A DNA stretch of 45,895 nt, taken from contig CALVIC010000010.1 of NCBI GenBank assembly GCA_944329365.1, positions 1 to 45,895 on the forward strand, in the 5' to 3' direction. Source of the stretch: an uncultured Bacilli bacterium (lineage in GTDB: Bacteria; Bacillota_I; Bacilli_A; RF39; UBA660). How positions within the stretch are numbered: position 1 is the stretch's first letter; the number at the start of each line of letters is the position of its first letter. Position numbers and translations under genes: made by a program. The notes under the pieces were generated by a model. The model was not told the origin of the DNA. It worked only from the letters and a program-made list of their open reading frames with translations, and searched no databases. Of the stretch, positions 3,892 to 21,786 are shown piece by piece.

Positions 3892-3969
3892 ATGACTAAA
3901 AGAGAAAAAGCTCTTTATGCCATAATATCACTTCTATTTATATTAATATTTATTATATTATTTAAATAG
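3892..3969 (+). CDS. 25-residue hydrophobic peptide, candidate type I toxin
   Basis: The reading MTKREKALYAI, then a run of about 14 Ile/Leu/Phe residues, then FK and TAG gives a short basic N-terminus and one membrane helix, as in TxpA/BsrG/Fst-type toxins. A very strong ribosome site (GGAGGTG, 3879-3885) lies 6 bases before ATG. The upstream ACCTC (3860-3864) can pair with GAGGT (3880-3884) and hide it, a control feature common in type I toxin mRNAs. It has its own good promoter, and an opposing RNA terminates one base after its stop codon. No family could be assigned; the call rests on architecture. A harmless small membrane protein is the alternative. Confidence 0.6.
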   Translation: MTKREKALYAIISLLFILIFIILFK

Positions 3970-4053
3970 AAAAAGGCACCTAACTCATTTGCTTCAATGA
4001 TTTAGGTGCGATAAACAAATCGGTCGCATTCAACATTGTGGTATTGAACGTTC
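3970..4053 (-). ncRNA. Candidate antisense RNA (antitoxin) opposing toxin mRNA
   Basis: On the minus strand, TATAAT (4065-4060) directly precedes a transcript beginning near 4053. It ends in a 14-pair hairpin with one mismatch (3976-3989 with 3996-4009, loop TGCTTC) and a T-run at 3974-3970. A second promoter lies further upstream (4089-4117), so a longer 5' end near 4082 is possible. The RNA would be fully complementary to the 3' untranslated part of the toxin mRNA but would not overlap the peptide, like RatA/txpA-style 3'-overlap pairs. Confidence 0.6.
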
Positions 4054-4088
4054 CTTTTTATTATATGAGATTTCTCTCATCTATATAC

Positions 4089-4117
4089 ATTTTATCATAA
4101 ATTTAACTTTAAGGCAA
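4089..4117 (-). promoter_or_regulatory. Minus-strand promoter for antisense RNA
   Basis: On the minus strand: TTGCCT (4117-4112), 17 bases, TAAAAT (4094-4089). A TATAAT at 4065-4060 with a poor -35 is the alternative; its spacer contains the inverted repeat ATGAGA/TCTCAT. Confidence 0.5.
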
Positions 4118-4169
4118 ACTTATTATATTCAATAAAAGATTTAGTTTTATAGGTTAATTTTATTTAGTA

Positions 4170-4178
4170 TGGTATAAT
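4170..4178 (+). promoter_or_regulatory. Extended -10 promoter for VanZ-like gene
   Basis: TGG directly before TATAAT (4173-4178) makes an extended -10; no good -35 is visible. Confidence 0.5.
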
Positions 4179-4230
4179 TATTTTAATTAAAGGTTTCTTT
4201 AAAAAAAGTAAGTTGAAAGTAGGTAAAAAA

Positions 4231-5544
4231 ATGAATAAAAAAGTGAATTTAGTTTCCAGCATTATTATGTATGTAATAGCTGGGTTAGTATTATTATTTT
4301 ATTTTGGTATTGGTTTTATGGGCCAAATGACAGAAGTTTCAAGGTTAGTTTTATTAGGGGTGAGTTCGTTATTTTTGTATATTGGTGGGTTTTTGCTTTC
4401 AAAATATTTAGATAATAACAAACCGATGAAGATTAATTTGTATATATTTTTTGGACTATATTTGATACTTTTAATTACGCTTACTTTATTTGATAGTTTA
4501 TGGCTTCGAAATGGATTTAATTTTAGCGGTTTTGATAATATACAAGATAGAATTAATTTAGTACCATTTAAAACAATAATGACTTTTGCTAAAGAGTTTG
4601 ATAGTATGTATTCGACTAGCCAGATTATACTTAATTTATTTGGAAATGTTTGTGCATTTATGCCGATGGCTTTATTTTTACCACTTTTATTTAAAAGGCA
4701 AAATAAGGTTTTTCAGTTTGTGATTACTTTGATACTTATGATACTTGGAATTGAGTTTTTGCAATTAATAACTGGTTCTGGTAGGTTTGATATTGATGAT
4801 TTAATTTTAAATTTATTTGGTGCAGTTTTAGTTTATTTGCTTTTTAAGATTAAATCGGTAAAGGCTTTAATTCATAATATATTTTTACTTGAAAAAAATA
4901 AAATTAGTAAGAAATCTTATATAAAAATAATTTCATTTATAGTAATTGCTATAGTTTTATTTATGGGAGTTATTATATACAGAAATAAGTTATATGATAA
5001 AAATTATGAGGAGCATAGTAAAATATATAATCCTGAAATAACTTTTGAACATAGTGATGAGTGTAGTGATAATAATTTGTTTTATGAAGATGAGGTTTAT
5101 AAATATTATTTTGAGTGCTATGACAACGATGATTTTTATTTGATAGTTAATAATGAAGAAAAATATTATGTAAAGGATTTTTTGGATAGTTCAAAATATA
5201 ATTATGATATTGATATGCTTTTAAGTACTATGGATTACAATAATATTAAGTATAAAGTGGAAAATAAGTATCCGCATTTTAATATGAAGGTAAAAAATAC
5301 TTTTGGTAGTGCTTATTATGGACCAAGTGATGTTGATTCAGATATAGCTAAATTAGTTTTAAAGGATAAATCGGTAGATGTCAATAATTTAGAGTTTGAA
5401 GTTAGTATTATTCCTAAGAAAAGTGGGGAAGAAGTTATGAATGTTGATTTTGAAATTTATGAAGATGGTGAGACTAAAACGATAACTAAAAAGGTTAAGG
5501 TTACAGTTTATGAAGATTTGAATGTGACATATAAAGAGGAATAA
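4231..5544 (+). CDS. VanZ-like membrane protein with extracytoplasmic C-terminal domain
   Basis: A 437-residue protein. Several membrane helices fill the first ~210 residues and carry VanZ-family features: NLVPFKTI after a helix, ILNLFGNVCAFMPMALFLPLLF, and LQLITGSGRFDIDDLILNLF near the end of the domain. Another helix (about residues 235-255) is followed by about 180 acidic, Tyr/Asp-rich residues probably outside the cell. VanZ proteins are linked to low-level teicoplanin resistance and envelope functions, but most members are uncharacterised. The ATG at 4231 follows AGGT at 7 bases; the upstream TTG at 4213 has no ribosome site. The gene is single, with its own promoter and terminator. Strong G-over-C bias on the coding strand. 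Confidence 0.8.
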   Translation: MNKKVNLVSSIIMYVIAGLVLLFYFGIGFMGQMTEVSRLVLLGVSSLFLYIGGFLLSKYLDNNKPMKINLYIFFGLYLILLITLTLFDSLWLRNGFNFSGFDNIQDRINLVPFKTIMTFAKEFDSMYSTSQIILNLFGNVCAFMPMALFLPLLFKRQNKVFQFVITLILMILGIEFLQLITGSGRFDIDDLILNLFGAVLVYLLFKIKSVKALIHNIFLLEKNKISKKSYIKIISFIVIAIVLFMGVIIYRNKLYDKNYEEHSKIYNPEITFEHSDECSDNNLFYEDEVYKYYFECYDNDDFYLIVNNEEKYYVKDFLDSSKYNYDIDMLLSTMDYNNIKYKVENKYPHFNMKVKNTFGSAYYGPSDVDSDIAKLVLKDKSVDVNNLEFEVSIIPKKSGEEVMNVDFEIYEDGETKTITKKVKVTVYEDLNVTYKEE

Positions 5545-13847: not shown

Positions 13848-14047
13848 TTTTTGAATGTGCATAAATGCCGAGTGTCTCTAGCAAAATGATACTCTTTAAA
13901 TAAAACTTACAATACTTAAGGCAATTTATAATAGATGATACTTTTTGTAATTTTAAAAATTAATTGTGCGATGAATTTAATGTGAATTTATGATATAATT
14001 TTATTTATAAGATAACATATAATCTTTTGTGTGGTTGGTGATAATTT

Positions 14048-16147
14048 ATGGATATGGAACAAAAAAATAAATATATTGAACAATACATTAATAATATCGC
14101 ATTACAAATAAATGATAAATACAAAGGTCTGATGGACGAAGATAAAATATCTAGAGCGATAAATATGTTTAAAGATTCTTCTGATGACCTAGAAACTGTA
14201 ATAATGCCAAGAATAAATGAACTTGCTCAAAAAGTTATTAATGACTTTCTTGAATTTCAAAAACAAATTCAGGAATTAATGAAAACAAACCCAGAGCAAC
14301 AGCAAAACGATTTAGCAACCTTAGATTTGAACACAGAACAAAATGGAATATATTTAAGCCAACAACAAATTGATTTATTAATGATAACTGATATTAACAC
14401 AAAAGAAGAACTAAAAGATTACATTGAAAATATATGTGGTCAATTTCCCAACATGAAAGTTGAAGATGTTATTTCAAATTTTGATTCCATAATGTCACTA
14501 GAACAATTAGAAGAAGCAAAAAGAACTTTGTATCAAAAATACCAAGATGGATTAATTAGTTATTTAGATAATGCTCGAATGAGTGATATTCAAAAGGCAA
14601 AAGTAAAATTAGAAAGACTTGGAATTAATGGTCAAGAGTTAGATTATTGTTTAACATTAGTATCTCAAAGTAGAATTAGTGAAGCATTTAATTATTTAGG
14701 GCAAAAATATGGCGATAATTTTATAACCAAGTTTAATCGTTCTATGAATGATGATTTTGAAAATATCAAAGATGTATCTTATGATGAAATGAAAAGTTTA
14801 TCTGAAATGATAAAACGTGATAAATCTATAGATACGATAATTGTAGCGACAGGAAAATTTGATAACTCAATTTATCAAACTATGAACGGAAAAGTTTTTG
14901 ATCCATATTTAACTGGTAAAGCATTACAGTTTTGTTATTCCAATAAAAAACATATGAGATATCATGCTTTGTTTGATCAAGCCCATGTTGATAATTTATT
15001 AAAGCAAGGAAAAGGATTAAAGAATCACGACCAAATACTTGCTGAGATGAAAGCCTATGTAAAAATGTCTATGGATTATATTGAAAAAAATAATAGACAA
15101 TTACCAGATGGCACAATGTTGATAAATACAGTTGAAGTATTTAATGAACTTGTAGAAAAAAATAAATCAGATAAAAGTTCTCCATATTCTATGGTATGGG
15201 AAAAATATTTTGGAATAACTATTGAAGAAATAATGTCTTGCTTTGATGGAATTAAGAAGCCTGATGGCGTTGAATTTATGTACAATGAGACAACATTAAC
15301 TGAAAGTCTTCAAAAAAGAGCAATGGTAGAGAAAGTATTATATCAAATAGAACAAAAACAATCTGGATTTATTGATGTTATAGGAGATCAAATGCATTTA
15401 TCTGATGAGGATGTAATGGCAAAAAAAGGATTACAAAACTTAATAGAAACAGCACAAATGCTTAAAAGATTCCAAGATGGTAAAGTAGTTGTTGATGGTC
15501 AAATAAAAGAAATAAAACCTAAAAAAACAGAATGTACCGAACACGATTTTCATTTTACAAAAGCTTTTTTAGAAAATATAAGCATATTAAATCACAGTGG
15601 TCAAAATACTGATTTATGGTCTATCAAAAAAGGTATGCAAGATATAATTTCTAAAACTTATAATCAGAATGGAGTAAAATTCGAAAAAAGTACATACTGG
15701 TCTTTATTTGGGAAGAATGACCATAATATAGTTCGAGCTAATATAAGTATTCAAAAAGAAAATTTTGAAAGAAGAAAAAAAGGATTACCAGAGAAAAGTT
15801 TAATTAAAACTATGTCAGCAGGTTTAATTCCTGATGGGGAAGCATTTTCAAGTATTAAAAGCCTAAAATCAGAAAAAGATTTACAACACAAGGAAGAAAA
15901 TAAATTTTTTGATCAAAGAAGTCAAGGCGAGATTGAAATAGCAAAGCAAATTAACCAAAAAAATCAAATGATAAAACAGCAAAAAGAGCAAACAAGACAA
16001 ATGAATAAACCAAAAGTAAGGACTTTAAGTGCTCATTCATCTAATTCTTCTCAAAATAAAGGCTTTACTAATGTACTTATATTATCATTAATTGCTAGTT
16101 TTGTTGCTGGAGCATTATTTATGATTGTTTATATGATTGTTAGGTAA
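14048..16147 (+). CDS. GH10-like (xylanase-fold) protein, no signal peptide, C-terminal membrane anchor
   Basis: A 699-residue protein. Residues 1-240 are helical and Gln/Asp/Ile-rich. Residues about 255-570 follow the order of GH10 motifs: KALQFCYSNKKHMRYHALFD (like the RGHTLVWH strand), VEVFNELVE (like VVNE, acid/base candidate E367), MYNETTLTESLQKRAMVEKV (like YNDYN with the following helix), IDVIGDQMHLS (like IDGIGLQSH), TECTEHD (like ITELD, nucleophile candidate E498) and STYWSLFGKND (like the closing Trp strand). Both glutamates seem conserved. After a Lys/Gln-rich linker, a single helix (about 676-697) ends the chain. GH10 enzymes are normally secreted; here no signal peptide exists, so the domain would face the cytoplasm. 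The ribosome site is weak (GGTTGGTG). The next gene follows after 6 bases. Confidence 0.65.
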   Translation: MDMEQKNKYIEQYINNIALQINDKYKGLMDEDKISRAINMFKDSSDDLETVIMPRINELAQKVINDFLEFQKQIQELMKTNPEQQQNDLATLDLNTEQNGIYLSQQQIDLLMITDINTKEELKDYIENICGQFPNMKVEDVISNFDSIMSLEQLEEAKRTLYQKYQDGLISYLDNARMSDIQKAKVKLERLGINGQELDYCLTLVSQSRISEAFNYLGQKYGDNFITKFNRSMNDDFENIKDVSYDEMKSLSEMIKRDKSIDTIIVATGKFDNSIYQTMNGKVFDPYLTGKALQFCYSNKKHMRYHALFDQAHVDNLLKQGKGLKNHDQILAEMKAYVKMSMDYIEKNNRQLPDGTMLINTVEVFNELVEKNKSDKSSPYSMVWEKYFGITIEEIMSCFDGIKKPDGVEFMYNETTLTESLQKRAMVEKVLYQIEQKQSGFIDVIGDQMHLSDEDVMAKKGLQNLIETAQMLKRFQDGKVVVDGQIKEIKPKKTECTEHDFHFTKAFLENISILNHSGQNTDLWSIKKGMQDIISKTYNQNGVKFEKSTYWSLFGKNDHNIVRANISIQKENFERRKKGLPEKSLIKTMSAGLIPDGEAFSSIKSLKSEKDLQHKEENKFFDQRSQGEIEIAKQINQKNQMIKQQKEQTRQMNKPKVRTLSAHSSNSSQNKGFTNVLILSLIASFVAGALFMIVYMIVR

Positions 16148-16153
16148 TAATTT

Positions 16154-16762
16154 ATGAGTACAGATTTAAATTTAAAAATATTAGAATCGTATGTTGAGAT
16201 AGATAAAATACAAGATGAAATTAATAATAAAATGTTTAATTTCATTACTAATGCTAATCAACTTGTTGAATTATCAGAGGATGATTATCAGATAGAAAAA
16301 ACAATAAAATTAAATAAAATATCACTTAAAAGTTATATTTTGGATTCACCTTGTTGTTCTTCTTTGCAAGAAAATAATATAACTAATTATTCAATAGAAG
16401 AATTAAAAAATTTTTTTGTTAAATATGAAAAAATATATAATGAAGATTTATCAAAATATTATTTGGCACTTTCTTTATATGAAATACTAGAAGAAATTGA
16501 AAAATTAATAGATAAGAAAATTGAAAGAGAAATTAGTGAGATTAGTAACATTTTCAATGATATTAGAAATATTCAAAATATAGTATCTGATGAATATGAA
16601 AAGTTATATTTTGACTCTAAAAATAAAATAAATACTGAATATAAAAATAATAAAATTAATGATATGGCGTACAATTTATGCATTCAATTATTAAATGATA
16701 TCTTTAATTTTTATATGAATGGTTATCCTAATATTCCAGATGAATACTTATATAAAGAATAA
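16154..16762 (+). CDS. Hypothetical helical protein, partner of the GH10-like gene
   Basis: A 202-residue protein, acidic and Asn/Ile/Lys-rich, probably all helical with a long amphipathic stretch (about 105-150) that may be coiled coil. A Cys pair occurs in SPCCSSLQ. No membrane segment and no recognised family. It starts 6 bases after the stop of the GH10-like gene, so translation is probably coupled; the two likely act together. A long hairpin terminator follows after about 80 bases. Confidence 0.6.
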   Translation: MSTDLNLKILESYVEIDKIQDEINNKMFNFITNANQLVELSEDDYQIEKTIKLNKISLKSYILDSPCCSSLQENNITNYSIEELKNFFVKYEKIYNEDLSKYYLALSLYEILEEIEKLIDKKIEREISEISNIFNDIRNIQNIVSDEYEKLYFDSKNKINTEYKNNKINDMAYNLCIQLLNDIFNFYMNGYPNIPDEYLYKE

Positions 16763-16840
16763 ATTTGTTTATTGTTATTATTACATCGAAAACTTAATGA
16801 TAAGCAAATTAAATTATTATTTGTGTGATACTTAATGATA

Positions 16841-21003: not shown

Positions 21004-21786
21004 CTATCCAAGCCCATGCTTTCGTTTAAACCTCTCGTTCATCGCCCAAATAATATCGTCAGATAAGTGATACCACTTTATCTGAATATAATCGCGGTAA
21101 CTTTCGTATTTACTATTGTAATTAAGACACCTATTAAGTGGTTGATAAAAAAGCGAACCAAACCCCAAACCGGTTCTTTTGATATCTCTGTTATGCATAA
21201 TCGCCTCCGTAATCTCCGAAGGCGTAATCCAAATAAAATCATTAACAGTCCCATATATAAGCGCATCTATCTTATCCTTTGAATTATTGCCCAGTAAAAC
21301 AAAACGGTGTACAGCCTCTCTTATCACATCTTTCTGATTAAAATAAAAATTAATCATATCTAACTTATCTTGATGTTTATCCTTGTACTCTAAAGAACTA
21401 ACTCTTTTAGACCCGCTGCCATCTATGGTCCCATCGCCATAATGAAAAAGACAAACCTCATTAATAACTGGATCTCCAAATCCAATACTTCTAAGAAAAG
21501 AAATAAAACTGTCTAGCTTCTCGATATGCACCGAATTTTTAATTCCCTTTTTAATACTAATTCCTTTTTCTGTACCTCCGATCTTCATAAAAATATCTGA
21601 TTTCTGCTTATTGAAATTTATCCGACAAGAAATAACCGAATCCGGGTTAACCTCTCCAAAAAGATAAAAAAGCAAATCATCGAAAAGGAGACTCAGATCA
21701 CAAACCCGTCTTCCATTTAAATACCGCATAAACTCATCCTCATTTTTAAAACCACTTATGTCCTTATTAAAAGGTTTTATTTCCAT
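21004..21786 (-). CDS. Hypothetical protein, possible PD-(D/E)XK nuclease-like fold
   Basis: A 260-residue soluble protein. RINFNKQKSDIFMKIGG followed by ISIKKGIKNSVHIEKLD gives an Asp, a beta strand and Ser-Ile-Lys-Lys-Gly spaced like the metal-binding core of restriction-endonuclease-fold proteins (D...SxK in place of D...ExK). The C-terminal half holds many aromatic residues (FIWITPSEITEAI, GFGSLFYQPLNRC). I infer the fold; no family is certain. AGAGGTGAT lies before ATG. It is a single gene between a tRNA and spoVS. Alternative: a structural protein without catalytic activity. Confidence 0.55.
   Translation of the reverse strand: MEIKPFNKDISGFKNEDEFMRYLNGRRVCDLSLLFDDLLFYLFGEVNPDSVISCRINFNKQKSDIFMKIGGTEKGISIKKGIKNSVHIEKLDSFISFLRSIGFGDPVINEVCLFHYGDGTIDGSGSKRVSSLEYKDKHQDKLDMINFYFNQKDVIREAVHRFVLLGNNSKDKIDALIYGTVNDFIWITPSEITEAIMHNRDIKRTGLGFGSLFYQPLNRCLNYNSKYESYRDYIQIKWYHLSDDIIWAMNERFKRKHGLG

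Follow-up and report, generated by a model that had tools for sequence, protein, structure and literature searches.

A predicted tail-anchored GH10-family protein of uncultured Bacilli as one probable allele of a mobile two-gene cassette with an exchangeable core

In this study, we report that a gene encoding a GH10-family protein with a predicted C-terminal membrane anchor is, as sequence comparison indicates with high confidence, one allele of a modular cassette with an exchangeable core. The exchange of the core, with the N-terminal module, the tail and a downstream partner gene kept, is apparent from the alignments and was missed by an earlier note on this DNA, which had described the pair of open reading frames. 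The window, that is, the whole stretch of 45,895 nucleotides that was analysed, is a chromosomal contig of a 1.30 Mb draft genome from RF39, an uncultivated order of Bacilli with strongly reduced genomes (PMC6784871). Gene 1 (14048-16147), identified by Pfam, alignment, structure modelling and hydropathy, encodes the tail-anchored GH10 protein of 699 aa and is followed after 6 bases by gene 2 (16154-16762), an all-helical constant partner of 202 aa recognised by profile searches and a structure model; these and all features below lie on the forward strand unless marked (-). Both open reading frames are real, as described earlier, and are under purifying selection: measured against homologues that are 82-92% identical, the GH10 core has a dN/dS of ~0.19-0.24 and the partner one of 0.29. 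The sequences themselves show that the protein belongs to GH10 and has intact catalytic motifs, that cores are exchanged, that tail and partner co-occur, and that the two genes are mobile.

The exchange is visible when the window protein is aligned with the products of sister cassettes. The window protein shares with L107 and L117 its N-terminal module (identities of 62% and 51%) and its tail (58% and 54%), and with L108 and L109 its tail (62% and 56%), but its core matches none of these four; the N-terminal module of L109 is 30% identical to that of the window protein. L124 shares 56% identity in the core and only 25% in the tail. At the DNA level, just the ends and the partner align between the window and L107, L117, L108, L109 and L111. 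The pattern is that of a polymorphic system, in which the same constant parts accompany exchanged enzymatic domains. The whole cassette block spans 14036-16802, and the DNA that it shares with L012 (93%) and L013 (86%) consists of the two genes alone, set in unrelated flanks; blastn placed the limits at 14036-16802 (L012), 14034-16799 (L013) and 14036-16759 (L015). These limits indicate that the cassette moves among strains of small-genome uncultured Bacilli as a two-gene block. In a FastTree phylogeny, the GH10 cores of cassettes fell at three places, the window type being sister (support 0.998) to cytosolic GH10 proteins that have neither module nor tail, and the topology points to at least three lineages as the origin of these cores. 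In the L012 copy, which is 92% identical, the open reading frame of gene 1 stops early in the tail linker (~3101) and homology continues to 3324, presumably owing to a frameshift or an assembly error.

The distribution of the cassette was determined in 386 genomes of the bacterial family. The partner profile matched 27 of them at E <= 0.001, four with weak partial matches only. Strong tail matches (E < 1e-20) and strong partner matches (E < 1e-42) occurred in an identical set of 18 genomes, the partner always downstream of the tail gene on the same strand; as the tail profile was derived from partner neighbours, the informative part of this agreement is that no strong tail was found without a partner. 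The tail (~80 residues) and the partner (~200 residues) are constant among cassettes and the core varies. Six of the 18 cores are GH10, three have no assigned family, one is an S41 peptidase and one belongs to the HopA1 family, the last two scoring above Pfam cut-offs, and the remainder are HExxH zincin-like (four), nucleotidyltransferase-like (two) or alpha/beta-hydrolase-like (one), labels given from motifs and lying below Pfam-level support. Two of the GH10 cores are degenerate or broken, and one also carries an HExxH region. Degeneration among the relatives takes the form of a missing acid/base Glu (L074 and L068) or the loss of both the nucleophile region and the Trp of the last strand (L113). 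The HopA1 family comprises a plant-pathogen effector and also lyases of lanthipeptide pathways (PMC9486802), so the name alone is no proof of an effector role.

The window protein almost certainly belongs to GH10. A search of the genome with the Pfam profile PF00331 gave it 37.1 bits (E 9e-10), above the curated cut-off of 22.1 bits, whereas GH10 was absent from the results of a default hmmscan of the entire protein, probably because of the speed filters of that program; automatic annotation would thus probably label gene 1 hypothetical. Homologues gave the same Pfam assignment, with E 6.8e-9 for one that is 82% identical and E 5.8e-22 for one that is 33% identical, the latter also matching PDB xylanases by sequence (1.4e-10). 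An AlphaFold model built from a six-sequence alignment had a mean pLDDT of 72.7, and its top Foldseek matches were GH10 xylanases. VIA-align superposed it with Z 21.3, at 3.1-3.4 A over 278-288 residues, and its partners at Z ~21 included TsXylA, Thermotoga Xyn10B and other GH10 xylanases. The model contains a (beta/alpha)8 barrel of the GH10-xylanase type, and both the profile score and the structural comparison that had been proposed as a check thus bear out the GH10-like domain of the earlier note.

The two Glu residues that had been put forward as catalytic candidates proved to be conserved. E367 (codon 15146-15148), the predicted acid/base, lies in an FNE motif, and E498 (codon 15539-15541), the predicted nucleophile, in a TEHD motif, both assigned from alignment and family conservation. 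The alignment of six sequences shows no variation at N366/E367 and T497/E498. Among 25 family sequences, 23 have Glu in the E367 column and 24 in the E498 column; the exceptions are L068 and L074, which have lost E367, and L110, an alignment slip. The window protein keeps H306, N366/E367, Q448/H450, T497/E498 and W551, which we take to be the equivalents of the GH10 catalytic and -1 subsite residues. The ENxMK motif of known xylanases touches sugars further out; the corresponding position in the window protein, residues 267-270, reads ATGK. The sequence YDEMK (residues 245-249) was considered as this motif and rejected on the alignment. With the catalytic and -1 residues present but ENxMK replaced, the enzyme is probably active and need not be a xylanase. 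The motifs of the window copy give no indication of the loss of catalysis that had been raised as a possibility, though a small number of its relatives are degenerate.

The anatomy of the protein differs in part from what had been described. Residues 1-80 (14048-14287) form an N-terminal module of three predicted helices, modelled mostly at pLDDT >90, which is also found with other cores and alone as a small protein. The barrel starts at NGIYLSQQQIDLL (14330-14395), with its first strand at ~residues 99-103 according to the secondary structure of the model and the structural alignments, which begin at model residues 79-95 when xylanases are compared; the model thus places the start of the barrel near residue 95, behind a separate domain 1-80. 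A helical insertion of ~130 residues (~residues 117-245; 14396-14782, boundaries approximate and deduced) lies between barrel strands 1 and 2, and is also present in cytosolic relatives that have neither module nor tail. The '240-residue helical part' of the earlier note is accordingly not one block: the strand at ~99-103 stands between the module 1-80 and the insertion at ~115-245. The remaining GH10 catalytic domain, delimited by Pfam, model and alignment, covers residues 246-595 (14783-15832). An alignment of 20 proteins defined the constant C-terminal tail, residues 621-699 (15908-16144), made up of an FxxRSxxEIxIxxQIKxKN helix, a basic linker and a membrane helix; in the model, a helix at residues 626-652 follows the barrel, ahead of the linker and the membrane helix. 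The latter, at ~residues 674-698 (16067-16141), carries a conserved GFxN...G motif and was located by model, alignment and hydropathy. In L121, a cassette protein encoded at 3937-5394 holds the N-terminal module in three tandem copies (residues 6-208), an arrangement which suggests a repeatable binding module.

Hydropathy analysis of the window protein identified a single membrane segment, at 671-699, preceded by a net charge of +5 in the 25 residues on its N-terminal side, and hydropathy of the first 78 residues did not exceed 0.41. The 23 cassette proteins examined behaved alike: none has an N-terminal hydrophobic segment, all have one membrane helix at the extreme C-terminus, and its N-side flank is net positive in 22. 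Secretion by a signal peptide was rejected on this basis (0/23 with a hydrophobic N-terminus). A lone C-terminal helix with a basic N-side flank, in a protein predicted to have no signal peptide, makes a cytoplasm-facing tail anchor the best reading of these sequences, and very probably the right one; the absence of a signal peptide, the single C-terminal helix and, as a prediction, the cytoplasmic side agree with what the earlier note had proposed. In the same genus, small proteins (L046-L053) also end in a GFxN...G membrane-helix tail and occupy conserved positions between murE and a uvrD-like helicase gene or between the dUTPase and methionyl-tRNA synthetase genes; they appear to be a tail-anchored housekeeping family, and a tail of this kind is therefore not in itself a sign of an effector.

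The partner was modelled with confidence as an all-helical protein (pLDDT 92.5). Foldseek returned no match to this model at E under 0.001, and no function was read from the fold. Its description as a 202-residue protein of no known identity holds, as it matches no family and no solved fold. No match was found in plasmid, phage and viral-contig collections, on which ground an origin from these sources was rejected, and beyond the members of the family the partner was not found among 346 genomes of the class. The partner is constant across payloads and not specific to any of them; those of L015 (GH10) and L109 (nucleotidyltransferase-like) are 88% identical. Tail and partner distances are correlated (Mantel r 0.83, p 1e-4), with a contribution from shared ancestry. 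Together with the co-occurrence of tail and partner, this correlated divergence suggests that the partner acts on the tail or the module.

We propose that gene 1 encodes a retaining glycoside hydrolase of the GH10 family which would be the exchangeable payload of the two-gene cassette. The last helix of the constant tail would insert in the cytoplasmic membrane with the enzyme facing the cytoplasm, and the N-terminal module and the partner would bind the payload or organise it; the partner would act most likely via the tail, as an adaptor, chaperone or regulator. The cassette would travel between strains, unrelated enzymes replacing the core while the ends and the partner stay. The target should be reachable from the inner membrane face, which for GH10 could mean a glycan that is imported or linked to a lipid. 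What we infer in this scheme is the topology, the binding of the partner to the tail, the role as an effector and the substrate. The exchange of enzymes in the core argues for a role in conflict or interaction, and it is likely that the cassette serves as an effector or in conflict in one form or another, be it tethered, exported or in defence; that it is a polymorphic effector system tethered at the inner membrane face has about an even chance of being correct. No cognate immunity gene is evident.

Export of the payload to act in another cell, the tail helix and the partner forming a membrane-domain and chaperone pair for secretion, appears unlikely. Chaperoned effectors do share the build of constant ends, a variable enzymatic core and a constant partner (compare Eag, PMC12881460), a HopA1-family domain that passes its Pfam cut-off forms one of the payloads, and peptidase-like and esterase-like cores recur. 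However, no secretion system is linked to the cassette, the type VI secretion system is a Gram-negative machine, and no immunity genes were identified. WXG100 proteins were present in 5 of the 20 genomes tested and absent from that of the window, and cargo of a type VII system was rejected for want of a systematic link. Somewhat more doubtful still is an anti-phage or other defence module in which the partner would be the sensor and the swappable enzyme, held at the membrane, the effector. Effector swapping about a constant partner and the patchy, mobile distribution would fit, but PADLOC gave no match for the cores and for the partner only a weak one (E 0.0015), and no defence genes were associated with the cassette in the neighbourhoods listed. 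GH10 and S41 enzymes are not known as usual defence effectors, which also counts against this reading.

Digestion of imported xylo-oligosaccharides by an ordinary xylanase that is merely held at the membrane is very unlikely. Intracellular GH10 xylanases such as IXT6/XynA2 of Geobacillus and TsXylA of Thermoanaerobacterium cut imported xylo-oligosaccharides (PMC4194401), so the earlier view that a cytoplasmic GH10 has no obvious known role is not supported; the best structural matches include TsXylA and IXT6, and the closest relatives of the window protein are cytosolic GH10 proteins of 480-550 aa in chromosomal settings. These xylanases share with gene 1 the GH10 barrel (Z 20-21), the two catalytic Glu and the absence of a signal peptide, but unlike gene 1 they have no N-terminal module, helical insertion, membrane tail or partner, and they sit in xylan-use pathways. 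No such pathway was found here: GH43 was present in 0 of 20 related genomes, including that of the window, and xylose isomerase above the cut-off in 0 of 20, a search of draft genomes in which GH43 stood for the beta-xylosidases. Their absence makes a feeding role less likely, and the change of the distal glycone motif to ATGK and the replacement of the core by unrelated enzymes in sister cassettes count against it as well. That the GH10 domain is catalytically dead and serves as a scaffold or binding domain is more improbable again; the degenerate relatives lend it some support, whereas the window protein retains the full set of conserved residues from H306 to W551 listed above, at dN/dS ~0.2.

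The proposed tethered polymorphic effector cassette shares with polymorphic toxins and Eag-chaperoned T6SS effectors the constant parts, the swappable enzymatic payload and the small conserved partner beside a membrane-domain protein, but differs from them in that its membrane part is C-terminal and its payload is predicted to be cytoplasmic, with no signal, known secretion system or payload-specific immunity gene identified. As far as Pfam, NCBIfam and PADLOC were searched, none of them names the cassette as a family, and a text search with partial coverage of the literature retrieved no paper joining these features, which is weak evidence for novelty. It is conceivable, though we put this forward only tentatively, that small-genome uncultured Bacilli hold a new mobile polymorphic system in which a tail anchor and a partner display or deliver enzymes, with GH10 recruited as a weapon at least three times. 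Its payloads would then comprise a glycosidase, peptidases and nucleotidyltransferase-like, esterase-like and HopA1-like proteins, used in conflict or host interaction. GH10 enzymes are usually viewed as secreted xylanases or as xylanases of imported sugars, and a swappable, tethered GH10 suggests that a modular intracellular effector system can take payloads from among the carbohydrate enzymes. The constant tail and partner also provide a handle for listing payloads across uncultured gut Bacilli.

A different arrangement of non-secreted GH10 was observed in the same bacterial family, where four proteins (L058, L061, L065 and L071) have GH10 fused to a PHP phosphoesterase, both domains above the Pfam cut-off. 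No described enzyme is known to combine the two, and a phosphorylated glycan is possibly the substrate. The fusions resemble gene 1 in the non-secreted GH10 and in the same kind of N-terminal extension, and differ from it in the PHP domain and, mostly, in lacking such a tail; the partner profile found no partner of the gene 2 type in their genomes.

The surroundings of the cassettes were also inspected. Integration at tRNA genes was rejected, tRNAs lying near some copies but not consistently, and so were special repeats at the cassette ends, where the sole common 5' element is a ribosome-binding stretch and none was convincing. A MobV-type relaxase, called by sequence and not by HMM, was seen near L015, L110 and L111. 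Upstream of gene 1, L014, L015, L107, L109 and L117 have a conserved gene set that encodes a divergent LysR regulator and between two and four uncharacterised proteins, one of them Cys-rich; some of these sets also contain a small protein that corresponds to the N-terminal module alone. In the window, a relative of the 260-aa open reading frame at 21004-21786 (-) lies just downstream of the L013 cassette (67% DNA identity over ~390 bases). At the contig end, 45368-45721 (-) encodes the C-terminal part of a protein that is tyrosine-recombinase-like by sequence, adjoined by the gene for a 938-aa protein whose start resembles the RelA/SpoT nucleotidyltransferase.
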